This document shows positions 18,769 to 40,192 of a stretch of 64,000 nt of DNA, in pieces. The notes beneath the pieces are model-generated. The model did not search any database and was not told where the DNA came from. It saw only the letters and a list, made by a program, of their open reading frames with translations. Each line of letters starts with the position of its first letter. Position 1 is the first letter of the stretch. Both the position numbers and the translations under genes were made by a program. Source of the DNA: Natrinema sp. SYSU A 869 (GTDB taxonomy: Archaea; Halobacteriota; Halobacteria; Halobacteriales; Natrialbaceae); assembly GCF_019879105.1 (NCBI RefSeq), contig NZ_CP082248.1:124001-188000 (forward strand), read 5' to 3'.

Positions 18769-19825
18769 TATAGTAACCGTTAGAACTTTTTGCTCATAGA
18801 TTGTTGCTGAATGTAGTGGATCATCTCGACGAGATCTCTGTCGAGGAATTGCAAAATTCCCTCGACAATGTGGAAGGAAAGAAGCCGACACAACGACTCT
18901 TAGCGGCAATAGCGTACAAAAACGGTATCACGCAGACTGAACTAGCCGAGTGGTACGACGTTCAGCGACGGACAATCTATAGCTGGCTCAAGCGACTCGA
19001 TACTGACGAGTCGCTTGAACAGGCCGTCACTGATGATCACCGATCTGGAAGAAAACGAAAGCTATCAGAAAAGAGCAAGAAAAATTCGAAGAAACTATTC
19101 ACGGATCACCTGCAGAAGTTGGGTTTGACGCGTCGGCGTGGACGCCGGCGCTCGTCCAGCAGTATCTTGACGAGACGTACGGTGTCGAGTACTCAATCCC
19201 AAGTTGCCGGCGGTTGCTCAAAGAGGCGGGATTGAGATATCAAAAACCTCGCCGTACAGCCGCTGGATCTGATGCTGACGAGCAAGAAACGTTCCGCGAG
19301 GAACTCAAAAAGAGCGGCGGGAAATGGACGCCACGGTAGTCTGTATCGATCAAACCAAGAAATCGGTTCAAGTTGAGCCGCGTGCCGCGTAGTTTCCCCG
19401 CGACATGCGCCCTTCAGTCGAATTATCCGGAAACACGACTGGACGTGCCTCTTGGCAGCGATCACCGAGGACGGTGATCGCTTTTTCTCTCGATTCGAAG
19501 AGTACGTTACCACCGATCACGCAAAACATTTCATTCTCGCATTATGCAATGAGCTCGAAGATGACTTGATCGTCGTTCTGGATGGAGCGCCGTACTTTCA
19601 AGCGTCGCCCGTCACGGACCTGACGGCCCGTAACGACCTCGCATTCATCACGTTGCCGGCGTATTCGCCGGAACTAAATCTGGTCGAAGAGTGCTGGCGA
19701 CAACTGCAAACAGCTCTCAGCAACCGGTTCTTCGACTCACTTGGGGAGCTAACAACGGCGATCGATACCGCTCTTAAGCAATTCTCTATACCAAGAATGA
19801 GAAACTATTTTTAATCCCTACTATA
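18769..19825 (+). mobile_element. IS630-family insertion sequence, defective
   Basis: The ends TATAGTAACCGTTAGAAC (left) and the inverse of TACTATA preceded by AATCCC (right, ending 19825) form imperfect inverted repeats. Both start at a TA, as expected for IS630, which duplicates TA on insertion. The 1.06-kb length is normal for the family. The transposase inside is broken (next entry), so this copy cannot move itself. Confidence 0.65.
18816..19814 (+). pseudogene. IS630-family transposase, frameshifted
   Basis: The helix-turn-helix half is intact in the first frame: VDHLDEISVEELQNSLDNVE, KNGITQTELAEWYDVQRRTI and YSWLKRLDTDESLEQAVTDD. The frame is lost near 19070. The middle (WTPALVQQYLDETYGVEYSI, RRLLKEAGLRYQKPRRTAA) and the catalytic part lie in other frames. 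VCIDQTKKSVQVEPRAA carries the first DDE aspartate and is followed by a TAG. The last frame has LIVVLDGAPYFQAS and AYSPELNLVEECWRQLQTAL, with the second aspartate and the glutamate. At least two frameshifts and one stop make it non-functional. Confidence 0.85.
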
Positions 19826-20747: not shown

Positions 20748-21521
20748 TTACAAGTCATGGAACTTGAGTTCCAACTCGAATTCGTTGCCCGTTTCGCGCA
20801 GTCGCTGCGTCAGCGCTTCCTTGGATTGTTCGTTCTTAATGCGCTCGATCGGTCCGCCGAGTGCGAGCGCTCCCAGCACTTCGTCTTCCGGCCGAATGGG
20901 GACCGCGATTCCGCAGTACCCTTCGACGTGTTCCTCCCAGTTGTACGCATACCCCTGTTCACGGACCTGATCAAGTTCCGCTACTAGCTCTTCTCGATCC
21001 GTAATCGTGTGGTCGGTGAGCGCAGGAAGCCCAACCGTGTCGATTATTCTGTCGAGACGTTCCTCGGAGTAGAAGGCAAGAATTGCCTTCCCCGCCGCAT
21101 TCGCATGGAGATAAATTCGTTTCCCTGGTCGGCTGTCGATCGCCGTGGCGTGTTCACCGGTCGCCGTGTACACGTGGTATCCGAATCCGTTCTCCTCAAC
21201 GATGAACTGCACTTGTTCGCCCGTCTCTTCCGCGAGCGCTTCGACGAACGATTCGGACAGACGGTTCACTTTCTGCCGGTCGCGAACTCGTCCCCCGATG
21301 TAGAGGAACTCTAGGCCGGGATAGTACGTGTCGCCATCTCGAGTGACGTATCTCCGTTTGATGAGTGTGTTCAGGTGGTGGTACACCGTGCTGTTCGCCA
21401 GATCCAACTCCTCCGCGATCTCGTGAAGTTTTGCTCCGTTCTCCGTCTGGAGGAACTCCACGATATCGAACGCCGTTTCCGAGGCCCGCACCGTTCGCGT
21501 GTCGCTAATATCTGAGACCAT
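20748..21521 (-). CDS. IclR-family transcriptional regulator
   Basis: A 257-residue IclR-type regulator. The N-terminal helix-turn-helix is KLHEIAEELDLANSTVYHHL (about residues 35-54). The C-terminal effector domain includes SFVEALAEETGEQVQFIVEE, GKRIYLHANAAGKAILAFYS and EGYCGIAVPIRPEDEVLGAL, the standard IclR ligand-binding pattern. Such regulators commonly control sugar-acid and aromatic degradation genes. It is divergent from the oxidoreductase at 21967 and heads the catabolic island, so it is the natural local regulator. On its own promoter, TTATTTTATC (21544-21553) sits about 25 bases before the ATG, suggesting a leaderless message. The inducer is unknown. Confidence 0.9.
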   Translation of the reverse strand: MVSDISDTRTVRASETAFDIVEFLQTENGAKLHEIAEELDLANSTVYHHLNTLIKRRYVTRDGDTYYPGLEFLYIGGRVRDRQKVNRLSESFVEALAEETGEQVQFIVEENGFGYHVYTATGEHATAIDSRPGKRIYLHANAAGKAILAFYSEERLDRIIDTVGLPALTDHTITDREELVAELDQVREQGYAYNWEEHVEGYCGIAVPIRPEDEVLGALALGGPIERIKNEQSKEALTQRLRETGNEFELELKFHDL

Positions 21522-21966
21522 AGTCGACTTCCCATTTCTATCGATAAAATAATTCTGGTAATCGTCGCGGTTATACGTATTCTGTGTCCACCCGTTTTCA
21601 TACCTGAGAGCGACGGGGTACTACCGACTCGAGACGTCCCAGATGGGAACCAACTGTTTGCAATTCTGCCGCGGAGAGTGCCTGTGTTCGGTTCCTCACG
21701 CAGCAGTACGGTTAGCGAGGAGGAAAACGGACTATTGTTCTGCAGTATGCGATGCCTCTCGATAGTCGACTTCGGGACGCGGCGTGTCGCGTTTTCCGTC
21801 ATACTCCGAAAACCGAATCCAGAGGGGGTACCGGTGGCTTTTGCCGGGTGCCCCGTCGCTGTTATCGTTCGGTCAACGGAATCGCTTCTCGCTAATGCGT
21901 CATAATCGTGCCGTAGCAGCAATGTTTAACCCATTGGGCAGAGTTGGTAGAAACAGATTAGCAAGC
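21522..21966. other. Divergent promoter region of the catabolic island
   Basis: 445 bases between the IclR start and the oxidoreductase start. Apart from the IclR TATA box near 21548 I see no convincing operator palindrome. The sequence ATGTTTAACCCATTGGG about 40 bases before 21967 could supply the TATA of the rightward gene. Frames within the region are not convincing. Confidence 0.4.
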
Positions 21967-22796
21967 ATGACCACTCGAGTCGCTCTTCTGGGAGCCGGCG
22001 GAAAGATGGGATGCAGGATCACCGACCGCCTCAAGAATAACTCCAGATACGACATGCGGTACGTGGAACCGAGCGAGCAGGGCCAGGAGAGACTCGCCGA
22101 GCAGGGGGTCTCAGCGATCGGGCTCTCGACGGGGCCGAGATCGTTATCATGGCTGTCCCGGACGACCTCATCGGACCCATTTCCGAAGATATAATTCCGA
22201 AGATCGATACCGGAACAATGGTCGTTCTCCTAGATCCTGCGGCGGCGTACGCCGACACGCTCTATGAGCGGAATGACACCTCCTATTTCATCACTCATCC
22301 CGCTCATCCGTCTATCATCGATGCGAGCTCGGATTTGAGTCGCGAAGACCCGGACTGGTTCGGCGGCCAGGGACGAGAAGAACAGGATATCGTCTGCGCT
22401 CTCCATCAGGGACCCGACGAGAACTACGAGCGCGGAGAGGCCCTGGCGCGCGACATCTACGCGCCGGTCCGCCGCGCCCACGAGCTGACGACGGAACAGA
22501 TGATCTTGCTGGAACCGGCGCTCGTCGAAATGGTGCTCGGTTCGTGTCTGTATGCCGTTCGAGAAGCATACGATCACGTGGTTGAGCAGGGGGTCCCCGA
22601 ACAGGCAGCGAGAGATTTCCTCTTCGGTCACTTCAGGGTCGAATTGGGGATCGTATTCGGATTTACAGACTTTCCCTTCTCCGACGGGGCACAGGAGATC
22701 ATTGAGGAGACCAAAGGAGACATCTTCGCGTCCAACTGGAAGGATCAGGTGTTCTCCGAGGACAAACTCGACGAGATCGTGGCTGAAGTGGCGTAG
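21967..22796 (+). pseudogene. 6-phosphogluconate dehydrogenase-like oxidoreductase (ApnO-like), frameshifted
   Basis: The N terminus MTTRVALLGAGGKMGCRITD is an NAD(P)-binding Rossmann motif. The frame breaks near 22121 and continues GAEIVIMAVPDDLIGPISED, then YFITHPAHPSIIDASSDLSR and ELGIVFGFTDFPFSDGAQEI. The whole resembles the PGDH_C-type family that includes D-apionate oxidoisomerase (ApnO) of bacterial apiose pathways. Adding one G to the GGG at 22120-22122 gives a continuous 276-residue protein of normal family length. It may therefore be functional in the organism if the deletion is an assembly error. It faces the RuBisCO-like/kinase genes and lies beside IclR. The substrate is inferred only from context. 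Confidence 0.75.
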
Positions 22797-22998: not shown

Positions 22999-24393
22999 TC
23001 AGTCGGTACGGTCTATTCCGCCCTGTCGAACGACCCCGAAGTAATCAAATTCGTCGTTCCTCGTGTGGACTTGCCCTCCTTTAAGCGCGAGTTCTAGACC
23101 ATCGAATTCCGTCGTCGAGTGGGCTCGGCACAGCGGTCCACCGGGTGCGACCGGTGCGATCGCCTCGAGCGCGTCGAGGTCCAGTTCAGAGATCACGTGG
23201 CTGCTTGTGTCCCCGCCGGCGACGCAAGCGCGCGTCACGCCCGATCGCTCGAGGATCTCACGGAACATGATCCCCTGCTGGCGCCCCAGGTACGATTCGA
23301 GGCTCTCCTCCGCACCGTGTTCCTCGAACGCCGCCCGCGTGGCGTCGATAGCGGGGTCGTCCGGACCGCGGGCGGAGTAGAGAACGACGCTCTCGCCTTC
23401 GTCCAGTACAGCGAGGGCCTCCTCGACTGCGGCGGCCCGTGCGTCGCTCTTCTCGTCCGGGTCGACCAGACGCTCGGTGTCGATCGAAACGAGGCGGAAC
23501 CCGTGGTCGCTCGCCCAGTCGATCTGCGTCGCCGTCTCTTCGGACGCGCTTCCGGACATGACGGCGATACGGTCCGCCGGCTCTCGCTTCTCGAAGTACG
23601 TCGCGTTCCGATCTATCTCTCCGATCTCGTCCCAGTGGCTGACGAGGGCGTGGTGTTCGAGGCCCGAGGAGCCGACTGCGAACAGCTGTCCCGACGTTTC
23701 GGTCGCGCGGGTCCACAGAAGGCGCCCGATCGTAGCGAGGTGGTCCGTGTTCAGTGCGTCGAGGACGACGATTTCGTCCTCGTCCTCGCGAATCGTCTCC
23801 TCGAGCTCCGTCTCGGCGGCCTCGTAGTCGTCGAGGAACCGTTGGTCGACGCGGCCGATCGGCCGATTCGTCTGCTCCCCAAGATGGCGCCGGAGGTCGC
23901 TCTCGTGCATCGGGGTGACTGGATGGTCGCGCATGGTCGGGTGGCGATCGATCCGATACACGTCTCCTCCCTGTTCCGCAAAGAGGTCCGAAAACGCAAC
24001 GTAGCGTCCGTGCGGGACCTCCGTTCCCTGAGACACGGGAACGAACGGCGAGTCGTACACGTCTTGGGCGATGTCGATCGCAGTACCGATGCTTCCGACC
24101 TTTGGCGAGGAATCGAACGTCGAACAGACCTTGTAGTGGACGATCGGAGCGTCCAATTCGGCGAGCGCTTCGAAAACTGGAGGGAGTTCCGATTCCATCT
24201 CTTCCGGCGTCATTGTCCGGCTTACACCAGCGACGCCGACAGCGTCGAGGTCATCGAAGCGCTCTAGGTCCTCCGCGGTCGGGGGTGTCATGAAGAGGAC
24301 AGCCCGAACGCCGTTGTCGGCCAATCCCTCTAGCGCGTCGGTCGATCCCGTAAAGTCGTCTCCGTAGAACGTCAGCAGTAGTTCGTCAGTCAT
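22999..24393 (-). CDS. DUF1537 four-carbon acid sugar kinase family protein (OiaK-like)
   Basis: A 464-residue ATP-dependent sugar-acid kinase. It opens MTDELLLTFYGDDFTGSTDA, the substrate-binding motif of the DUF1537 N-terminal domain. The C-terminal nucleotide-binding domain has AVGSSGLEHHALVSHW, AVMSGSASEETATQID, ESVVLYSARGPDD and ACVAGGDTSSHVISELDLD. The family phosphorylates erythronate, threonate, 3-oxo-tetronates or 3-oxo-isoapionate. Paired with a RuBisCO-like protein, the 3-oxo-isoapionate kinase role (OiaK) is the closest precedent. The ATG at 24393 overlaps the stop of the RuBisCO-like gene (ATGACTGA), so the two are translationally coupled. Because of a frameshift upstream, an uninterrupted frame runs from that gene into this one; the 882-residue fusion should not be taken at face value. 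Confidence 0.85.
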   Translation of the reverse strand: MTDELLLTFYGDDFTGSTDALEGLADNGVRAVLFMTPPTAEDLERFDDLDAVGVAGVSRTMTPEEMESELPPVFEALAELDAPIVHYKVCSTFDSSPKVGSIGTAIDIAQDVYDSPFVPVSQGTEVPHGRYVAFSDLFAEQGGDVYRIDRHPTMRDHPVTPMHESDLRRHLGEQTNRPIGRVDQRFLDDYEAAETELEETIREDEDEIVVLDALNTDHLATIGRLLWTRATETSGQLFAVGSSGLEHHALVSHWDEIGEIDRNATYFEKREPADRIAVMSGSASEETATQIDWASDHGFRLVSIDTERLVDPDEKSDARAAAVEEALAVLDEGESVVLYSARGPDDPAIDATRAAFEEHGAEESLESYLGRQQGIMFREILERSGVTRACVAGGDTSSHVISELDLDALEAIAPVAPGGPLCRAHSTTEFDGLELALKGGQVHTRNDEFDYFGVVRQGGIDRTD

Positions 24394-25647
24394 TGTCTCC
24401 GTAGTAGTCGATTGCCGTTCGTAATTCTTCGTGTGTCTCTGCGTATTCTTCGAGCGGAATGCCCCGCATCGCAGCCTCCCATCCTTGCTTGAGGTGAGCG
24501 ACGCCCGCTTGAGGGCCGTTGGGGTGGCCCAGGATACCGCCCCGGCGAGGTACATGAGGTCGGTGTTTCCCAGCGCCTCGTACGTATCGTGCGCTTGCCC
24601 GGCCCACTGGCCGGAGGAGAACACAGGCATCACCGCGTCGTCGGTACTGATTGGCGTCTGGCACGCCTCGGCGGACGATATCACCGACTCGTCCGCTTCC
24701 GTGAACTTGTTCCGGATCCCGCTTACGTGCAGGTGGTCGACGCCAGCGAGTCGCCAGAACTTCTGCCACGCCTCATAGCTAAATCCCAGCTGTGGACACC
24801 GGGAAAGCGCGCCCCAACCGTTCCGGTGCCCGTGTATCGGGAGGTCGGATTCCTCGCGGAGTTTCTTCACTCCGGAGAGACCGACGCTTCTGAGACTCAC
24901 CATGAGGCAGTTGCCGCCCGCGTCCTTCACCGCCTCGTACCGCTCTACCATTTCGTCGACGCCGCCGGTGATGTTACAGGCGTACATCACCGTCTTCCCG
25001 GTCTCCGCTTCGTGGCGGTGGATGGCATCCATCACTGCTTCGATCCGGTCTTTGACTCGAGAGTACGGGGGATCGGCGATGAGTTCGTCGTCCTTGATGA
25101 AGTCGACGCCCGCATCGACCAGCGTTTCGACGAGTTCGCCGGTCTCTTCGGGAGAGAGCCCGACGCTGGGCTTGATGATGGTTCCGATGATCGGCTGGTC
25201 GTGGACGTCGACGATCTCTCGTGTCCCCTTGATACCGAACTGCGGTCCAGGCTGAGCGGCCGCGAACGAATCCGGAATGGAGAGTTCGACGAGCTGGACA
25301 CCGGAGAGCTCCTGCAGGACGAACAGGTTCCCGGCGACCATCGTCATGAGGTTCGGAAGCGACGTCCCGATATTCTCCGTGGGAAACGACAGGTCGACCT
25401 CCGCTCGGGTGTACTCCGTCGAGTCCTCGATGTCGGGCGGAGCGGCCGACCCTGGAAGGGTCGGCTCGTCTACTGTCTCCAGTTCGGTCACTGCTTCGAC
25501 TCTCGCACCGTGGCGCTCGGTGAGGTCGTCCGTCTCGGCCGATACCTCGACGAAGGTGCCGGAGGACTGTTCGTTCGCGATCGCCTCCGCCGCTCGCTCG
25601 GGGTCGTACGGTGTCTCGATGCGGTATGTTGCGTGGATCCGTGACAT
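24386..25647 (-). pseudogene. RuBisCO-like protein (form IV, OiaX-type), one-base frameshift near the 3' end
   Basis: A form IV RuBisCO-like protein. GTIIKPSVGLSPEETGEL keeps the lysine equivalent to RuBisCO K175. VDFIKDDELIADPPYSRVKD keeps the carbamylated lysine and metal-binding Asp-Glu. PIHGHRNGWGALSRC and VDHLHVSGIRNKF carry the active-site histidines, and VFSSGQWAGQ the later phosphate-site region. Loop-6 lysine and other carboxylation residues are not conserved, so it is not a CO2-fixing enzyme. The frame breaks at the G run 24540-24543; the other frame continues GGILGHPNGPQAGVAHLKQG and ends ...YYGDND at 24386. One extra G restores 420 residues. In bacteria OiaX cleaves 3-oxo-isoapionate 4-phosphate. 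Confidence 0.85.
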
Positions 25648-25718: not shown

Positions 25719-26525
25719 TCACTGTTTCTCGGCCTCTCGGACACGCTCGACGAAGCTCGAACAGGAATCGCCGGGCTCCACACCGAGCTCGGCGGCGATG
25801 TCATTGACGTGACTGAGGACACCCTCGTCCAGCGCCGACTTCGAATCGCCGATCCGCGCTGAATCGACGCCGACGGTCGCAGCGGGGATACCCCGGTCGT
25901 TCATTGTGCGGATCCGACCGATGCCGGCGTCGTCTTTCCCGACGCCCGCGTCGAAGAGGGTGATCCCCGCGACGTCGGCCTGGATGTAGGAGTCGAACTC
26001 CCCGGCGAGTCGCTCGCCGTGACTGCCGGTGACCGTGATCGCTCCCTCGTGTTCGTCGGAGATCAGACCGATCGAATCGAGCGTCCAGACCGGGATCTCG
26101 CCGTCTTCGACCTTCGACTGCGTCATCTCGCTTCCGACGTCCTCCTGGACAGGTTTGACGCCCGCATCGTGCATGGTTGCCGCGCATTCGAGGGCGGACT
26201 GGCTGACTTCACAACCGCAGTCTGCAGCGACGTCGTTGATGTGGCTTATCACGCCGTCTCGAGCCATATCTGCACCGTCTCCGATTCGAGCGCTCTGATT
26301 ATCGACCGTCGCGGCCGGGAGGCCGAGTTCCTCAAGGTAGGACAGCGATTCGATTCCGGCGTCGTCTTTGCCGACACCGGCGTTGTTGAAGACGATCCCG
26401 GTGAGTCCGAGCTGTGCGGCGTATCGGCCGGACGAGATGCCGCCGTGACTGCCGGCGATGATGACCGTCCCCTGCGAGTCTTTCGGCTGGGTGATGCTAT
26501 CGACTAGTCGGATGTCTCTTGGCAT
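25719..26525 (-). CDS. Tandem-duplicated domain protein of the catabolic island, unknown function
   Basis: A 268-residue protein made of two copies of one roughly 100-residue domain (about 4-105 and 146-247), joined by a cysteine-containing linker. Both copies show GSHG near the start, AGVGKDDAGI in the middle, then G(L/I)PAATV, SARIGD, and GV(I/L)SH(I/V)ND(V/I)AA at the end. The glycine-, aspartate- and histidine-rich conserved blocks look like an enzyme active site rather than a structural repeat. It is soluble with no signal peptide. It lies 70 bases upstream of the RuBisCO-like gene on the same strand, so it is probably in the same pathway. A TTTTAAAA box about 30 bases before the start gives it its own promoter. 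I do not recognise the family. Confidence 0.75.
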   Translation of the reverse strand: MPRDIRLVDSITQPKDSQGTVIIAGSHGGISSGRYAAQLGLTGIVFNNAGVGKDDAGIESLSYLEELGLPAATVDNQSARIGDGADMARDGVISHINDVAADCGCEVSQSALECAATMHDAGVKPVQEDVGSEMTQSKVEDGEIPVWTLDSIGLISDEHEGAITVTGSHGERLAGEFDSYIQADVAGITLFDAGVGKDDAGIGRIRTMNDRGIPAATVGVDSARIGDSKSALDEGVLSHVNDIAAELGVEPGDSCSSFVERVREAEKQ

Positions 26526-26693: not shown

Positions 26694-27119
26694 GTGTTCG
26701 AGAGAATCCATCACATAGCGATACTTGTAGGCGGCGTTGAGCAAGAGATAGATGAATACACGGCCTTGTTTGAGGAAGACTTCGGCATGGATCGGATTCA
26801 GAAAGTCCTCTTCGAGGACGATAATTGCGAAGTCGCCCTCTACTCGGTCGGCGAGACTATCATCGAGTTCACGTCCCCGACCGGCGAAAGCGGTTGGCAC
26901 TACGAACACCTCCAGGAGCACGGCCCCGGCTTCTTCCACATCGCGTTCGAGGTAGACGATATCGAACGGCGGCGGTCAGAACTCGAGGAGCTGGGATACG
27001 GCTTCGTCGACGATATCCGTGACGGGATCGACTGGAAGATAACTACGCTCGATTACCACGATACCCCTCTCCCCATGCAAATCGTCGAAGATCCGCGGCC
27101 CGTCGATGAACGGGTATAG
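26694..27119 (+). CDS. VOC-family protein (glyoxalase/methylmalonyl-CoA epimerase type)
   Basis: A 141-residue vicinal-oxygen-chelate protein with a GTG start. It begins MFERIHHIAILVGGVEQEID, with the first metal-ligand histidine in the IHHIAI strand. VGETIIEFTSP holds the glutamate of the first half. HGPGFFHIAFEVDDIERRRS supplies the second-half histidine, and DTPLPMQIVEDP ends the fold near the final ligand. This layout is that of the methylmalonyl-CoA epimerase and glyoxalase I subgroup. In the island it might epimerise or isomerise an oxo-acid intermediate, but that is a guess. It faces away from the tandem-domain gene, sharing an upstream region of about 170 bases. Confidence 0.8.
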   Translation: MFERIHHIAILVGGVEQEIDEYTALFEEDFGMDRIQKVLFEDDNCEVALYSVGETIIEFTSPTGESGWHYEHLQEHGPGFFHIAFEVDDIERRRSELEELGYGFVDDIRDGIDWKITTLDYHDTPLPMQIVEDPRPVDERV

Positions 27120-27525: not shown

Positions 27526-28314
27526 TCAGTAGCCACCGCCCATCGTGGTCGTGACGCCGCCGTCAACGACCATCGTCTCGCCGTTTATGAAGCTCGCGAG
27601 CGGGCTGGCGAGGTACAGCGCGGTGTCCGCCACGTCTTGGGGCTGGCCGATCCGACCGAGTGGTGTCGCCTGCTCATGTTTCTCGGATGATTCGTTATCG
27701 ATTAGCTCAAGATCGTCCTCCGTCATGGGCGTCTCGATCATACTCGGGTGGATCGAATTCACTCGAATACCCTCGGGACCGAGTCGGTCCGCCAGCGCGT
27801 ACGTCATCGATTCGACTGCGCCTTTCGACGTGGAGTACCGCACGCCGTCGCCGCGGCCGATAGACGACGTGACACTGGACATGTTGATGACCGATCCGCT
27901 CCTGCCCGCTCTAATCATGCTCTCGGCGGCCGCCTGAGCGCCGAAGAACACGCCCTTAACGTTGATATCCATGATCTGATCGAAGTCCTCCTCGGTCGTC
28001 TCGAGGAACTCATCGCTGTGCGTGATGCCGGCGTTGTTAACCATGATCGAGACGCCACCGAGCTGATCAGCGACGGAGATCGCTTCTCGAAGATCCTGCA
28101 CATTAGCAACGTTGCATTCGACGTATTCCGCTTCCTGCTCGTACTCTCGCTGAATTTTCTCGTGAGTCGGGATGCCGCCGCCGCGGGGGTCCGACTGTAG
28201 GTCGGCGACGACGACATTCGCGCCGTGTTCTGCTAATGTCAGGCTGATCGCTCGTCCGTTACCGCTCGATCCGCCAGTAACTACCGCTACATCGTCTGCT
28301 AACCAATCAGGCAT
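27526..28314 (-). CDS. Short-chain dehydrogenase/reductase
   Basis: A 262-residue classical SDR. The cofactor motif is VAVVTGGSSGNGRAISLTLA (TGxxxGxG) and ADLQSD after the second strand suggests NAD preference. NNAG is in VSIMVNNAGITHS. The catalytic tetrad is visible as MSSVTSSIGRGDGVRYSTSK, with Ser, Tyr and Lys in YxxxK. The C-terminal GETMVVDGG is the usual last strand. The start at 28314 (MPDWLADD) is preferred to an upstream ATG at 28383, because a TATATAAT element lies between them at 28341-28352. It probably oxidises or reduces a sugar-acid intermediate in this island; the substrate is unknown. Confidence 0.88.
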   Translation of the reverse strand: MPDWLADDVAVVTGGSSGNGRAISLTLAEHGANVVVADLQSDPRGGGIPTHEKIQREYEQEAEYVECNVANVQDLREAISVADQLGGVSIMVNNAGITHSDEFLETTEEDFDQIMDINVKGVFFGAQAAAESMIRAGRSGSVINMSSVTSSIGRGDGVRYSTSKGAVESMTYALADRLGPEGIRVNSIHPSMIETPMTEDDLELIDNESSEKHEQATPLGRIGQPQDVADTALYLASPLASFINGETMVVDGGVTTTMGGGY

Positions 28315-28612: not shown

Positions 28613-29374
28613 ATGATGAACGATACACAGCAGTTGTTCCAGCCAAGCGAGCCCGCAACGGGGAACTGGATCTCGATCGGACATCCGGCCGTCGCAGAAA
28701 TCTGTTCCGAAGGGTTCGATTTCGTCGTTATCGATACGGAACATACCGCGATGGGCTTGGAAACGATCGAGAATATGCTCCGGGCCGTTCATGACGACAC
28801 GGCGTCTATCGTGCGCATCCCATCGAACGACCCGGTGCGGATAAAGCGTGTCCTCGATCTCGGAGTCGCGGGGCTCATGATCCCGATGATTGAAACCGGC
28901 GAGCAGGCAGAGCAGGCCGTCAAAGCGATGCAATACCCTCCGGAGGGAACGCGTGGTGTCGCACCCGCACGAGCGTCCGATTACGGCCGTACCTTCGGCG
29001 AGTACTTCGAGACCGCCGACGACGAACTGGTCACCGTCCTCCAGATCGAAACGAAACGGGGCGTGGAAAACGCGGAAGATATCGTCTCCGTCGACGGCGT
29101 AGACGCAGTCATAATCGGTCATGGAGACCTCTCGGCGTCGCTGGACATCTTCGGAGAGTGGACCGACGAGCGGTTCGAGTCGGCGTTGGACTCGATAGTA
29201 ACGGCGGCACAGGATAACGGCAAGCCCGTCGGGATGTTGGCCACGGACCACGAAGGGATCCATCGCTGGGTCGATGCGGGTGTCGACTTCCTGTTAGTCG
29301 GCGCGGATATCGCCTACCTTTCGGCCGGTAGCGACGCGGCGCGAGAGGAGTTCGAAGAACTCGTCGGGAAGTGA
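28613..29374 (+). CDS. HpcH/HpaI-family aldolase
   Basis: A 253-residue class II metal-dependent aldolase of the HpcH/HpaI (2-keto-3-deoxy acid, 4-hydroxy-2-oxo acid) family. Key segments are GNWISIGHPAVAEICSEGFD, FVVIDTEHTAMGLETIEN (the conserved D-x-E-H), GVAGLMIPMIETGEQAEQAV, VTVLQIETKRGVENAE with the metal-binding glutamate, and GVDAVIIGHGDLSASLDI with the metal-binding aspartate. Such enzymes cleave to pyruvate, or to glyoxylate-type oxo acids, plus an aldehyde. ATGs occur at 28613 and 28616; TTTTTACTT lies about 25 bases upstream, so the message is probably leaderless. In the island it could take the last carbon-carbon cleavage step. Confidence 0.88.
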   Translation: MMNDTQQLFQPSEPATGNWISIGHPAVAEICSEGFDFVVIDTEHTAMGLETIENMLRAVHDDTASIVRIPSNDPVRIKRVLDLGVAGLMIPMIETGEQAEQAVKAMQYPPEGTRGVAPARASDYGRTFGEYFETADDELVTVLQIETKRGVENAEDIVSVDGVDAVIIGHGDLSASLDIFGEWTDERFESALDSIVTAAQDNGKPVGMLATDHEGIHRWVDAGVDFLLVGADIAYLSAGSDAAREEFEELVGK

Positions 29375-29590: not shown

Positions 29591-30895
29591 CTACACGAGA
29601 CCGAAGTAGCGAGGGACAGCGAGGACGACCGATGGGAAGAGGATTAGCACGACCAGGGCACCGAGCAACGGAATGTAGTACGGGATGATCCCTTTGATGA
29701 TATCTTCGATATCCAGATCGGTGACACGTTCCAGCGCGAAGAGTACGACGCCGAACGGCGGCGAGATAAGTCCGATCATCAGGGCGACCATCATCACAAT
29801 ACCGAAGTGGATCGGATCAATGCCGATCTGCGGGAGTATTGGTGCGACGATCGGGACGACGATCATGATGATCGCAATGGTCTCCATGAACGTTCCGAGG
29901 ATCAGGAAGAATAAGGCGAACAGAAGGAGCAGGACCGTTGGTTCCGACGAGATAGTCAGTAGCTGCTCGGTGAGAACCGTCGGCAGACCCGAGATAGTGA
30001 GGACGAACCCATAGACGTTTGCGAACGCGATAATGAGCGTCAGCACGGCGGTGTCTTCAAACGTGTCGCCGAGGATGGACCATAGCGTCCTCGGATCTAA
30101 GTTCTGGTAGTAGAGGCCGCCTAGGAATACCGCGTAGATTCCGGCGACAGCGGCTGCCTCGGTCGGCGTGAACAGGCCGGTCGCGATTCCGCCGATGATA
30201 ATCGCCGGTGCTATGAGTCCGGGCAAGGCCCGCACGCTCGACTCAAGGAGTTCACTGAGGCTGAACGACTCCACGGTCGCCGTGCCGCTCTTCAGCGCGC
30301 CGACGGTGATGAACGCCATGAGACCGACCCCCATCACCAGGCCGGGAAGGATTCCAGCGAGGAAGAGGGCCCCGATCGAGACCTGCGCCGTCACTCCATA
30401 GACGATAATGGGAATACTCGGCGGGATGATCGGTCCGATGGTAGAGGACGCACCGGTGATTCCGGCTGCGGTCGATCCGTCATATCCACGGCTGGTCATC
30501 GCCTCGTATTCGATGGACCCTAGTCCGGCGGCGTCTGCCACCGCCGCACCGCTCATCCCGGAGAAGATGATACTCACCACGACGTTCACGTGGCCGAGTC
30601 CGCCGGGGAGCGGACGCACGAGGGCTTCGGCGAAGTCGAAGATGTCGTCCGTCAGTCCGATGGAGTTCATCATCCGCCCCGCGAACAGAAAGAACGGGAT
30701 CGCGAGTAGCGTAAAACTGTTTAGCGAACTGTACATCTGATTAGCGAACGTCTGGACGGTCCACGCCGGACCGACACTGAGCAGCATCACTAACGCCGAG
30801 ACTAACCCGAGCGCGAACGCGACGTGAACGCCGAACACGTACATGACTAACAACGGTACGACGAACAACGCGGCCAACAGTATCGGATCAGCCAT
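29591..30895 (-). CDS. dctM: TRAP transporter large permease (DctM family)
   Basis: A 434-residue integral membrane protein, the transport subunit of a tripartite ATP-independent periplasmic (TRAP) system driven by ion gradients. About 12 hydrophobic segments are spread along its length. Family landmarks are LAIPFFLFAGRMMNSIGLTD, GMSGAAVADAAGLGSIEYEA, ITGASSTIGPIIPPSIPIIV and GLISPPFGVVLFAL. Length is standard. It overlaps the DctQ stop by eight bases (ATGGCTGA) and follows DctP and DctQ in the same transcript. The substrate is probably the sugar acid handled by the neighbouring enzymes, which is inference from linkage. Confidence 0.92.
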   Translation of the reverse strand: MADPILLAALFVVPLLVMYVFGVHVAFALGLVSALVMLLSVGPAWTVQTFANQMYSSLNSFTLLAIPFFLFAGRMMNSIGLTDDIFDFAEALVRPLPGGLGHVNVVVSIIFSGMSGAAVADAAGLGSIEYEAMTSRGYDGSTAAGITGASSTIGPIIPPSIPIIVYGVTAQVSIGALFLAGILPGLVMGVGLMAFITVGALKSGTATVESFSLSELLESSVRALPGLIAPAIIIGGIATGLFTPTEAAAVAGIYAVFLGGLYYQNLDPRTLWSILGDTFEDTAVLTLIIAFANVYGFVLTISGLPTVLTEQLLTISSEPTVLLLLFALFFLILGTFMETIAIIMIVVPIVAPILPQIGIDPIHFGIVMMVALMIGLISPPFGVVLFALERVTDLDIEDIIKGIIPYYIPLLGALVVLILFPSVVLAVPRYFGLV

Positions 30896-31438
30896 CGTCG
30901 GTCACCCGGGCGTCCGGCTCGGTAGTTTCGCCGGTCCATATCAGAGCCGTCTGCTCGAAGACGAACACTATGCAGAGACCGAACACACCGATAAGGTAGA
31001 CCATCAAGTATCCGACCTTCAGCCAGCCTACCGTCGGAAGCGACTGAAGCATCGTTCGGTCCAAGATGCTGATACCGGATAGTATTACTATGGAGCACAT
31101 CACGACGACCAAGACGTTCGAGAGCGTGATCATGAGATGTCGCACCAAATCGGACACCATCCGCAGTAGTGGCCGCACAGAGATGTGATTTTACGCCGCA
31201 TCGAGTACGGAACACCGGTTAGCGTCATAAAGACGAGCAGGTATCGAGCGACCTCGGTCGTCCAAACGCTCGGGAAACTCACCGGAACGAATCGAAAGAG
31301 TATCTGTAGTCCGACGATCACTCCCATCGTAGCCAAGGTAAGCCTCCCAATGCCGCCCAGCAACTCCTCTACCCTGCCCATCAGCGGGCGGACGGACACC
31401 CCGAAATCCAGGTTGGCTATATCTCGTATACTAGTCAT
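30888..31438 (-). pseudogene. dctQ: TRAP transporter small permease (DctQ family), one-base frameshift
   Basis: The four-span small permease is split over two frames. The first part reads GGIGRLTLATMGVIVGLQIL, EVARYLLVFMTLTGVPYSMR and RK. The second part begins HISVRPLLRMVSDLVRHLMI and ends WTGETTEPDARVTDDG. YLLVFMTLTGVPYSMRRK followed by H is the conserved DctQ loop, and the break falls exactly there, in the A run 31189-31192. Adding one A yields a continuous 183-residue protein, the normal DctQ size. Loss would inactivate the TRAP system, so this is a key base to check. It lies between DctP and DctM. Confidence 0.8.
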
Positions 31439-31465
31439 GGTGTACTCTATTCATGTTCATCCATG

Positions 31466-32479
31466 TTAGGCTAACGACTGAACGTCTTCCAGACTCGGCT
31501 TCCAGCGGTCGCTGAAGAACTCCTCTAGCTGCGGTTCTGCGGCACTCCGGAACGCGTCTTGATCGACGTCGCTACCGGGGATGACCGTCACGTCGTGTTC
31601 GTCTTGCACCATCTGGAGCAGCTCGTCTGCCCGTGTTCGGGTCTCTTCGTTGCCCCACTCGATCGCCTCGTCGAGCGCAGTCTGCATCGCTTCCTGCTCG
31701 CTTTCGTCCAGGCCCTGCCACCGATCCTCATTGATCACCCAATTCTGTGTCTGAAGGAGGTGATCGGTCTGCGAGAAGTGCGTTTGAACCTCGTAAAGGC
31801 TGGAATCCATGAACTGTACGATCGGACCTTCGGATGCATCCACGACGCCTGTTTGAAGAGCCTGGTACAGTTCATCGTACGGGACCGGTGTCGCCTCAGC
31901 GCCGATCTCTTCCCAACTGTTCACCCACGTCTCGAACTCGGGGAGTCGCATCTTGACGCCCTCGATATCGGATGGCGCACTCACCTCCTTGTTTGCGGTA
32001 GTTCCTCGAAATCCGCGGAACGCCGACCCGAGAATCCGCTGGTTGGCGTCGGCTATCAGTTTGTCGTTGAAACCATCGTCACCGTAGACGTATTCGTCCA
32101 TGAGCGCCTGAAAGTGCTCCCAGTCCTCGGCGATGAACGGAGCTTCCAAGAAGCCGTACTCAGTACCGTATGACTGCGTGAGTGCCGTCATCGCCACACC
32201 GTGGCCGGCTATGCTTCCGGAAGACGTGGCACTTATGTGATCTTCCTCTCCACCAAGGCTCACGTATTCGAGACTCAAACTCCCATCAGTCTCGTTTGAG
32301 AGGCTCTCTCCCCATCGCTCGAGAAGCTTCACTTGTGGGTGATCTTGACTGAACGTCGCAGCTATCTGAAATGAATTTCCAGACGTACCGCCACCGATAC
32401 AGCCGGCGAGGGTACTGATTCCGAGCGCTGCTGTGCCACCGATAGTTTTCAGTAATGGTCGCCGCTCTTTATCTGCCAT
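31466..32479 (-). CDS. dctP: TRAP transporter substrate-binding protein (DctP family), Tat lipoprotein
   Basis: A 337-residue extracellular solute-binding protein. The N terminus KERRPLLKTIGGTAALGIST ends in the lipobox LAGC, so it is a twin-arginine-exported lipoprotein, the usual haloarchaeal form. DctP features follow: QVKLLERWGESLSNETDGSL, the ligand-arginine region VKMRLPEFETWVNSWEEIGA, TPVPYDELYQALQTGVVDAS and INEDRWQGLDESEQEAMQTA. It captures organic or sugar acids for DctQM. A TATA-like element (TTATGCATAATTAG, about 32505-32518) lies 26-39 bases upstream. First gene of the transporter operon. Confidence 0.92.
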   Translation of the reverse strand: MADKERRPLLKTIGGTAALGISTLAGCIGGGTSGNSFQIAATFSQDHPQVKLLERWGESLSNETDGSLSLEYVSLGGEEDHISATSSGSIAGHGVAMTALTQSYGTEYGFLEAPFIAEDWEHFQALMDEYVYGDDGFNDKLIADANQRILGSAFRGFRGTTANKEVSAPSDIEGVKMRLPEFETWVNSWEEIGAEATPVPYDELYQALQTGVVDASEGPIVQFMDSSLYEVQTHFSQTDHLLQTQNWVINEDRWQGLDESEQEAMQTALDEAIEWGNEETRTRADELLQMVQDEHDVTVIPGSDVDQDAFRSAAEPQLEEFFSDRWKPSLEDVQSLA

Positions 32480-33577: not shown

Positions 33578-34043
33578 TTCCTACAATTCGCATTATTATA
33601 GTTGTTTCTCTGCCGCGACTGAACGCGATCCGCCTGAAACGATAGCCCAGTAGGACTGTGGGTTGACATCTCACGGGTTCCAGAGATCGGTGGCTCCGGC
33701 CGAGAATTCGTCTCTCGCTAGCACCTGAGTGGAGAAGACGGGATCGTATCACCTATTCAGCCGCCAATGAAGATATTCCATATCACTCTATCTGCCTCAA
33801 AAAGTATCTCCCGTATTTTAACCTGTTACCAAGGACCAAGAAGAATTTCTAATTCGATGGTATCACCCATTCAGCAACTGGATAGAACCCAATTTCGCAT
33901 CTCGCTAAAACCAGTCGGTCGCCACAATTCGCTTTTCCCGTCAACTACGGTTCGTTCGCTGTTCAAAGAATTCATTGAGAGGGAACGTTACCTTCACCCG
34001 GACAAGGAGGGCAGTGTACAGACGCCCGTAGTTGAGGAACTCT

Positions 34044-34205
34044 CTCGTGTTGGACGAGAGTGAGAGCGGTGTTCTCTACTCTGCCGGCGGTCCGAATGAT
34101 CCCGCTATCGGTAGCACGAGGGCGTTTTGGAATGTAAGTTCCACCTCGAATTCGATGGCTAAGCTAGATGACGGGTTTAGCGGGAGGAACGATTACAGTA
34201 AAGGC
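34044..34205 (+). pseudogene. Fragment of a second DUF1537 kinase gene
   Basis: One frame reads VLDESESGVLYSAGGPNDPA then IGSTRAF. This is strikingly close to the intact kinase at 22999-24393 (VLDEGESVVLYSARGPDDPA, IDATRAAF). After a shift, EFDG followed by stops corresponds to the kinase's later EFDGLELALKGG with the intervening 60 or so residues deleted. Only the C-terminal domain is represented. It is a relic of a duplicated or formerly longer kinase region. Confidence 0.6.
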
Positions 34206-38319: not shown

Positions 38320-38562
38320 TCAGGTGCTCACGAGGATTTCACGGGCGGCCGGGCCAGCAACCCGCGCCAGCGCCCCGTATCCGACGTACAGTACGAGTGC
38401 CTCCGCCAGAACGTAACCAACCGTAGCAGCAGCCTGCCCGGACTCACCGAATACGGGAGCGACCAACAGGACGCTCAGCGACACCGCTAGTAGACTCATC
38501 AGCACGATCCAGCCTGTCGATACCTGCCAGACTGCCGTACATTCGGTGTATAGATCACTCAT
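38320..38562 (-). CDS. DUF7512-type small membrane protein
   Basis: An 80-residue protein with two hydrophobic helices (TGWIVLMSLLAVSLSVLLVA and AAATVGYVLAEALVLYVGYG). Small proteins of this kind are regularly encoded directly upstream of TauE-type permeases in haloarchaea, and may be an accessory subunit. Its ATG overlaps the stop of the preceding oxidoreductase gene (ATGAGTGA), indicating coupled translation. Family name is from recollection of that gene pairing. Confidence 0.7.
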   Translation of the reverse strand: MSDLYTECTAVWQVSTGWIVLMSLLAVSLSVLLVAPVFGESGQAAATVGYVLAEALVLYVGYGALARVAGPAAREILVST

Positions 38563-40043
38563 GGCATTCCCCGCCGCCGGCTTGAGCGTTTTCGGACGGC
38601 GTGATGTTCTGATTGAGGCGGAACAGGTTCGTCGGGTCGTACTCGTCCTTGAGCGCGACCAACCGCTCGTACGTCGGTCCGAACGTGGACCGCATCATAT
38701 CGTCGCCCTCTTCGAGGAATCCCGGGAAGTTCAGGTACACCGAGCCGTCCGAGAACTGGCGCATGTCGTCGAGACAGTCGCGCACCCACTCGACGTTGGC
38801 GTCGTCGTCCTCCGAGCGTTCCCAGTTCGCTTCGACGCCGAGCAGGAAGGGCGCGTGCCGCCCCGCGAACGCACTGTCCTCGACGCCAACGTGGGCGATT
38901 GCGCCACCCAACTGCCAGACATCGACCGTCGATAGCGGTGACGGTGCTACATCGGACCAGTACGCAATTCGATCGATGCCGGACTCCGACAGGCCGTCGA
39001 GATACAGCGACTTCCAGTAGTAGCGCATCCCGTCGGGGTAGTCCTCGTCGAAGAGTTGCTGGAACTCGACGTACGGCATCGGTCCGCTGAAGTCGGCGAT
39101 CGGCTCGGCGATCTCCCGCAAAGGTGCCAGTGCGCGTTCGCCGTCCGCGACCGAGCCCGCATAACAGCCCGCGATCGCTATTTGGATTCGTGCACCGCGT
39201 CCGGTGGGAAGAGGTCCTCGTCGGGCATCACACCGGACAAGGTGAGCAAGCTGACTTCCGAGGGCGCATCCGCGACGTAGTCGCGGTATGCTTCCAAAAC
39301 CTCGACCATCCGGTCACCCGAATAGAACACGAGGCAAATCGCCACGTCCGGGCCGACCGGGTGGAGGTCGAACTCGAAGCCGGTGACCACCCCGAAGTTA
39401 CCGCCGCCGCCGCGGAGTCCCCAGAAGAGGTCTGGGTTCTCGTCCTCGCTGGCGGTCAGGTACTCGCCGTCCGCCGTGACTAGATTTACGGATGCGAGGT
39501 TGTCACAGGTCAAGCCGTACTTGCAGCGGAGATGACCGATGCCACCACCGAGCGTCAGTCCAGCGACCCCCGTCTCCGAGACGGCCCTCCAGGCGTTGCC
39601 AGCCCGAAGGCCTGAGTTTCGTGGTCCACATCCGCCCACGTAGCACCGGCTTGGACCCGCGCCGTCCGTGTGTTAGGATCTACCCACACGCCCCTCATCT
39701 CAGAGAGATCGATGACGAGCCCGTCGTCGCAGACGGCGGTCCCGGCGACGTTGTGGCCACCGCCACGTACCGCGACGAGGAGATCGTTCTCGTGCGCGAA
39801 GTCCACCGCGCTGATGACGTCTCTGACGCCTCGACATTGGGCAATCAGGGCCGGACGCTTGTCGATCATCCCGTTCCACACCGAGCGCGTGTCGTCGTAG
39901 TCAGCGTCCTCAGAACGGCTGCGCCGTTCTGATGGGCTCGAAAGAGCGCCGCTCTTTCGAACGTCACCGGGACGAATCAGGTCGCCGTGGAATTCTGCTT
40001 CGAACCGTTCAATCTGTTCGGCGGGGATAGCTTGTTGTGCCAT
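38555..40043 (-). pseudogene. FAD-binding berberine-bridge-type oxidoreductase with two one-base frameshifts
   Basis: The N-terminal FAD domain contains LLVAVRGGGHNVAGTAVCDD, with the histidine that covalently links FAD in this family. After a break at the CCC run 39585-39587, GVAGLTLGGGIGHLRCKYGL and LFWGLRGGGGNFGVVTGFEF follow. After a second break near 39190, IAIAGCYAGSVADGERALAP leads to the BBE tail DEYDPTNLFRLNQNI. Adding one G and one A gives 496 residues without interruption, the family norm. Both breaks are one-base losses in short homopolymers. The protein also carries a 19-residue insertion (see 39906-39962). First gene of an operon with DUF7512 and TauE; divergent from a winged-helix regulator. 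Confidence 0.8.
39906..39962 (-). repeat. 57-bp in-frame palindromic insertion in the FAD oxidoreductase
   Basis: Relative to the expected IRPGD-ADYDD sequence, 19 codons (residues 28-46) are inserted between GGTGAC and GCTGAC. The insert consists of two palindromes, TCGAAAGAGCGGCGCTCTTT(CGA) and AGAACGGCGCAGCCGTTCT, separated by 8 bases, and ends in GAC, a copy of the target triplet. A 51-bp insert of the same design lies at 41601-41651. The length is a multiple of three and there is no stop. Confidence 0.65.
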
Positions 40044-40192
40044 ACAGAAGTGGACGATAGCGCGGGTGTTGGCCTCACCCATCGAGCAGGGTTCGGTGTC
40101 AAGAGCACCGTTTCAGGCAGTGAGACGAATTCCGGAGCGTGCACAGGATAGAGTTACTATCAGTGACACCCTTTGTCTAGAGGGTGAGTCAC

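Follow-up and report, generated by a model that had tools for sequence, protein, structure and literature searches.

A tandem DUF1805-like protein encoded next to a RuBisCO-like gene in Natrinema sp. SYSU A 869, a candidate enzyme of oxo-acid catabolism

The gene at positions 25719-26525 of the stretch of DNA analyzed here (the window, 64,000 nucleotides of Natrinema sp. SYSU A 869) encodes a protein made of two tandem copies of one domain, and we conclude from structure models and from comparisons with its relatives that this protein has a predicted DUF1805-like fold and can be placed in an unnamed tandem DUF1805-like family. As to its role, we tentatively propose a soluble enzyme that needs no cofactor and takes part in the breakdown of hydroxylated oxo-acids or ketols, many of them branched, a reading that we regard as plausible, if somewhat short of an even chance. 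The gene, its two domains, and the neighboring genes that bear on the argument are as follows.

25719..26525, minus strand: tandem DUF1805-like protein, 268 aa, two domains (ORF, self-alignment, model, and structure match)
26211..26516, minus strand: copy 1 of the domain, residues 4-105 (self-alignment; residues 1-140 modelled alone match 1QW2, Z 7.8)
25785..26090, minus strand: copy 2 of the domain, residues 146-247, with invariant H169, D192, S238, and N241 (self-alignment, structure match, and conservation)
24389..25647, minus strand: RuBisCO-like protein (RLP), best NCBIfam match OiaX in the intact orthologue, with a 1-bp deletion near 24.5 kb (comparison with Haloterrigena sp. KLK7)
23002..24387, minus strand: four-carbon acid sugar kinase of the DUF1537 type (95% identity to the KLK7 protein, whose best NCBIfam match is OiaK)
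21922..22793, plus strand: frameshifted gene for a PGDH_C (PF16896) oxidoreductase, homologous to that of rhizobial apiose operons
20751..21521, minus strand: IclR-family regulator (KLK7 comparison)
26694..27119, plus strand: VOC-family protein, divergent from the tandem-protein gene, a conserved haloarchaeal neighbor
27562..28314, minus strand: SDR oxidoreductase, 94% identical to the KLK7 protein
28613..29365, plus strand: HpcH/HpaI-type aldolase
29591..32479, minus strand: TRAP transporter (large permease, frameshifted small permease, and binding protein)

Translation of 25719-26525 gave an intact open reading frame with zero internal stops, and the orthologue in Haloterrigena sp. KLK7 (protein WP_339106093) was 89% identical to it without gaps. 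When residues 1-130 were aligned with residues 131-268 (BLOSUM62), the score was 209, as against a mean of 33.6 (SD 6.2) and a maximum of 56 in 500 shuffles, and the motifs GSHG, AGVGKDDAGI, PAATV, SARIGD, and GV(I/L)SH(I/V)ND were each located in both copies. The two tandem copies and five shared motifs described in the initial annotation were thus upheld, as was its placement of the gene directly upstream of the RLP gene, which lies 71 bp downstream on the same strand. Other genomes carry it in split, single-domain genes, so that the repeat is a domain in its own right.

The same annotation had been unable to assign a family. At the level of sequence this held, since the window protein matched no Pfam family up to an E value of 5 and no NCBIfam family, gave no match to the DUF1805 profile (PF08827) at the gathering cut-off, and found no relative in a sequence search of the PDB; at the level of the fold it did not. 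Structure prediction, the check that had been suggested, gave a confident AlphaFold model from 58 sequences (57 relatives plus the window protein; pLDDT 94.3, pTM 0.91), and the best match of the full model among solved structures was 1QW2 (TA1206 of Thermoplasma acidophilum), a DUF1805 protein, with Z 8.6 and an rmsd of 2.8 over 92 residues of copy 2 (next match, Z 5.4). Copy 1, modelled alone as residues 1-140 (pLDDT 87.4), again matched 1QW2 best, with an rmsd of 2.0 over 76 residues (next match, Z 5.7). Foldseek by itself returned no significant match, and the Rossmann dehydrogenases and glycosyltransferases that appeared in the fold lists at Z 4-5 were set aside as sharing a common arrangement only. 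A Z of about 8 alone is no proof, but the two independent models agreed, the gap to the next row was 2 to 3 Z units, and several relatives matched the DUF1805 profile, one of them above its cut-off (L022 from Aminobacter, 31.7 versus 29.5); it is on these three points that the predicted fold rests. Because the window protein itself fails the profile, we do not file it as a formal DUF1805 member. It also differs from DUF1805 and TA1206, with which both of its copies appear to share a fold, in that two domains are fused and that additional GSHGG and NDAGVGKD motifs are present.

DUF1805 proteins form tetramers through an N-terminal beta region, according to the Pfam description. We know of no function for DUF1805 and of no biochemical data on relatives of the tandem protein, and a search of the literature on DUF1805/YunC and apionate found no function for the tandem DUF1805-like family. 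Other identities were considered and dropped. A PHROG match to the window protein (2e-4) covered 32 residues only; DNA polymerase IV or another Y-family polymerase (IMS, PF00817) was rejected because about 30 residues align (31-61 of 148), in a local helical motif; and nothing was found in support of a toxin, a regulator, or a polymerase fragment.

Exact-peptide scans starting from the single window protein gave no matches in genome or viral collections, an alignment being required, and a search profile built from ten relatives was therefore run on reference genomes. It found 68 loci, spread over Poribacteria, Latescibacterota, Alpha- and Betaproteobacteria, Actinomycetota, Chloroflexota, Dehalococcoidia, and one haloarchaeal genome; the closest named relatives were on plasmids of Haloterrigena, Haloarcula, and Natronosalvus. 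The family turned up in 10 of the 292 haloarchaeal genomes sampled and in 26 of 300 genomes of the order that includes the Alcaligenaceae locus L050 (called Burkholderiales here). Single-domain genes occurred in Chloroflexota, Dehalococcoidia (where two stand side by side in tandem), and many Burkholderiales. In a FastTree tree of 127 domains, most first copies were separated from most second copies (85 of 96 correctly placed, support 0.875), the main exception being copy 2 of the actinobacterial set, which indicates that the duplication is old and may have occurred more than once. Four clusters (L059, L075, L076, and L086) each held two full tandem genes, that is, four domains. The Aminobacter relative (L022:9743-10696) began with a hydrophobic stretch resembling a signal peptide, and some family members may accordingly be exported. 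On a contig labelled Enemella evansiae (L038), the gene adjoining the family member was 99% identical to a PQQ dehydrogenase gene of a Ponticoccus plasmid, so that the contig is either mislabelled or the recipient of a recent transfer.

Conservation was counted over 58 tandem sequences. In copy 2, H169, D192, S238, and N241 were invariant (58/58), and D150 and S151 were found in 57 and 56 sequences, respectively. In copy 1, N97 was invariant and D48 was present in 55 of the 58 (the window protein has Asn), whereas H27, the counterpart of H169, was found in 36, the remainder having mostly Tyr. In the secondary structure of the model, the conserved residues come after strands 1, 2, 3, and 5 of each copy, as would be expected for a site at one edge of the sheet. 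The polar conservation from which two active or binding sites had been proposed is therefore real, but a second site is doubtful, given the contrast between H27 and H169.

The gene neighborhoods of the relatives, scored by profile searches around the loci, fell into several kinds. On plasmids of KLK7, H. salifodinae, Haloarcula JP-L23, and Natronosalvus rutilus, the tandem gene stood directly before genes for an RLP and a four-carbon acid sugar kinase, with PGDH_C nearby in the first three. The family gene of L050 lay beside the kinase gene, with those for the RLP and PGDH_C close by, and five Burkholderiales loci had the order RLP, kinase, PGDH_C, single-domain gene. An IlvD-type dihydroxy-acid dehydratase gene started 25 to 42 bp away in four of these five, and the one IlvD protein checked scored 663 against the IlvD equivalog cut-off of 618. 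The RLP-linked members from haloarchaea, Alcaligenaceae, and Burkholderiales occupied three separate branches of the domain tree. Co-occurrence with the DUF1537-type kinase, which had been named as a check, was borne out: family and kinase were found in the same genome in 6 of the 292 haloarchaea (0.4 expected; Fisher 2e-7) and in 12 of the 300 Burkholderiales (1.9 expected; Fisher 4e-9), relatedness being uncorrected in both cases, and 6 of the 12 Burkholderiales pairs were adjacent.

A second context involved thiamine diphosphate (TPP) enzymes. Genes for acetolactate synthase (ALS)-like proteins, E1 alpha/beta proteins, or both were present at 28 of the 68 loci (E1 alpha/beta at 24), in Poribacteria, Latescibacterota, Proteobacteria, and Actinomycetes, with an ALS-like (IlvB-type) gene within about 150 bp at 18 loci. 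Haloarchaeal genomes in which no RLP gene was adjacent had E1 genes, mostly together with VOC, TRAP, and SDR genes. A third context, the CoA clusters seen at 15 actinobacterial loci, consisted of DUF35, AMP-ligase, thiolase, and amidohydrolase genes. TRAP transporters and SDRs were frequent neighbors, and several relatives had no recognized partner nearby. An ALS, E1, RLP, kinase, PGDH_C, or IlvD homologue lay within 6 kb at 51 of 104 loci, a set that includes follow-up loci and close relatives, so that this figure is a description and not a rate. The earlier suggestion of a candidate enzyme of the RLP pathway thus survives in part: the link to the RLP, kinase, and PGDH_C genes recurs in haloarchaea and Burkholderiales, but the family is not specific to RLPs, most relatives being found beside TPP enzymes or in CoA-degradation clusters.

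One of the closest known counterparts of the haloarchaeal clusters is the rhizobial D-apiose operon (OiaX, kinase, PGDH_C, and ApnL; for example, L173), which contains the same trio; in comparisons of intact loci with L173, identity was 44 to 49% for the RLPs and 44 to 61% for the PGDH_C proteins. In Rhizobium beringeri, the operon annotated oiaX combines this trio with an ABC transporter, a Gfo/Idh/MocA dehydrogenase, and ApnL (1043.6 versus a cut-off of 750) and has no tandem protein. The KLK7 RLP had OiaX (NF042437) as its best NCBIfam match, at 515.6 below the equivalog cut-off of 700 (a rhizobial OiaX scored 777), and the KLK7 kinase had OiaK (NF042436), at 441 against a cut-off of 700; the kinase of the annotated rhizobial operon itself reached just 472. 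The window carries a PGDH_C homologue, as do the orthologous clusters on three of the four plasmids examined; intact copies are 44 to 46% identical to the rhizobial gene, and the product is presumed, judging from gene position alone, to be the D-apionate oxidoisomerase. In contrast to the rhizobial operon, most haloarchaeal clusters are TRAP fed rather than ABC fed and have the tandem protein, VOC, and SDR genes in addition; apiose dehydrogenase (ApsD) and the ApnL lactonase gave no tblastn match in the window or in the 16 loci tested that pair an RLP with a family member, whether tandem or single domain. Conversely, the tandem protein is not encoded in the annotated apiose operon examined (L173). 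Enzyme names for an apiose cluster are given in PMC11747546, and RLPs acting on 3-oxo-isoapionate-4-phosphate are described in PMC6302742, which cites Carter et al. 2018.

A different comparison is with the Ilv set of acetolactate synthase, ketol-acid reductoisomerase, and dihydroxy-acid dehydratase. IlvB and IlvD homologues are among the family's neighbors, as is a weakly IlvC-like PGDH_C protein (one PGDH_C partner resembled ketol-acid reductoisomerase at E 5e-7), but the tandem protein is unlike any Ilv enzyme or subunit, and its operons look catabolic (TRAP transporters, IclR, and SDR). 3-Oxo-isoapionate is chemically a dihydroxylated acetolactate, and the oxidoisomerase shifts a hydroxymethyl group. 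What the contexts have in common is a chemistry in which alpha-hydroxy-beta-oxo acids, 2,3-dihydroxy acids, and ketols are formed, rearranged, dehydrated, or split. The enzymes concerned are acetolactate-type TPP enzymes, the reductoisomerase-like PGDH_C protein, IlvD, and the RLP, and the simplest reading is that of a small acid-base enzyme for such an intermediate. From this we infer catalysis, the class of substrate, and the type of reaction. In the window, the partners of the tandem protein would be the RLP, kinase, and PGDH_C protein and its substrate a 3-oxo-isoapionate-type intermediate, with acid-base chemistry expected in the form of isomerization or tautomerization, or of hydrolysis of that kind of oxo-acid or of the corresponding lactone. 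The putative site would lie at the C-terminal edge of the beta-sheet, with Asp/Ser, SHGG, DAG, and SxxN following strands 1, 2, 3, and 5, respectively, and most of the catalysis would fall to copy 2. Against an enzyme of this kind, the actinobacterial DUF35/thiolase/AMP-ligase context has no obvious tie to the same substrates, and the annotated apiose operon works without the tandem protein.

The proximity of ALS-like catalytic genes at 18 loci, together with a duplicated small domain of the sort typical of binding modules, would also fit a noncatalytic accessory or regulatory subunit (ligand sensing or assembly) of the adjacent carbon-carbon-cleaving enzyme, as IlvN is of acetolactate synthase. 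We consider this unlikely, since the partner changes completely (ALS, E1, RLP, IlvD, or DUF35/thiolase) while the His, Asp, Ser, and Asn residues are invariant, and the signal-like start of the Aminobacter relative suggests export. Still less likely is a lactonase-like hydrolase at the entry to the pathway, a TRAP-fed counterpart of ApnL: the failure to find ApnL- or ApsD-like genes in any RLP-linked locus tested would be explained, and Ser238, His169, and Asp192, each invariant, could form a triad, but the sequence has no visible nucleophile-elbow motif and the TPP and CoA contexts have no call for a sugar lactonase. That the majority of relatives lie outside RLP operons, and that DUF1805 is uncharacterized, could instead mean that the RLP link is incidental and that these proteins travel with catabolic islands while serving some unspecific housekeeping or stress role. 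To this we also give little credence, because the linkage recurs on three tree branches, two groups have family and kinase in the same genome far more often than chance predicts (with relatedness uncorrected), and the contexts are mostly catabolic.

The oxo-acid enzyme reading can be widened, with more doubt, to the proposal that the tandem and single-domain proteins form a single undescribed enzyme family with branched 2,3-dihydroxy or alpha-hydroxy-beta-oxo acids as substrates, and that they mark archaeal and bacterial catabolic pathways of IlvB-, IlvC-, and IlvD-type enzymes and RLPs; we think this possible rather than probable. If true, it would offer a first way into the function of the DUF1805 fold, reveal an unrecognized step in sugar-acid pathways of the RuBisCO-like and thiamine-dependent kinds, and supply a marker gene with which such pathways could be looked for in microbes of soils, the sea, and hypersaline habitats. 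It would also make a testable enzyme candidate of a "hypothetical protein" whose range extends from haloarchaea to Poribacteria.

Whether the pathway works in SYSU A 869 is a separate matter. Three neighbors are frameshifted compared with KLK7: the RLP gene, the PGDH_C gene (21922-22793, net 10 bp absent), and the TRAP small permease gene (30894-31438, 1 bp absent). The pathway may therefore be broken in this assembly, or these may be sequencing errors. An apparent 882-aa RLP-kinase "fusion" ORF (22999-25647) is an artifact of the 1-bp deletion, the true end of the RLP lying at 24389-24541 in another frame. No second copy of the window's RLP was found in the genome, and fragments at 33974-34157 (plus strand), 36 to 57% identical to four-carbon acid sugar kinase, are possibly the remnant of a second kinase gene. 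These features would suit a decaying cluster in which the tandem gene is a remnant with no working pathway, which is compatible with any of the family-level readings. We think decay a minority prospect, however, because the tandem, kinase, SDR, VOC, aldolase, and regulator genes and two TRAP genes are all intact, and two of the three frameshifts consist of one missing base within or next to a short run of a single base, a kind of gap that sequencing errors also leave. Elsewhere in the window, three adjacent ORFs at 38555-40082 (minus strand) resemble one FAD-linked oxidase broken by frameshifts, and broken transposase-like ORFs (18801-19814) adjoin the catabolic island.
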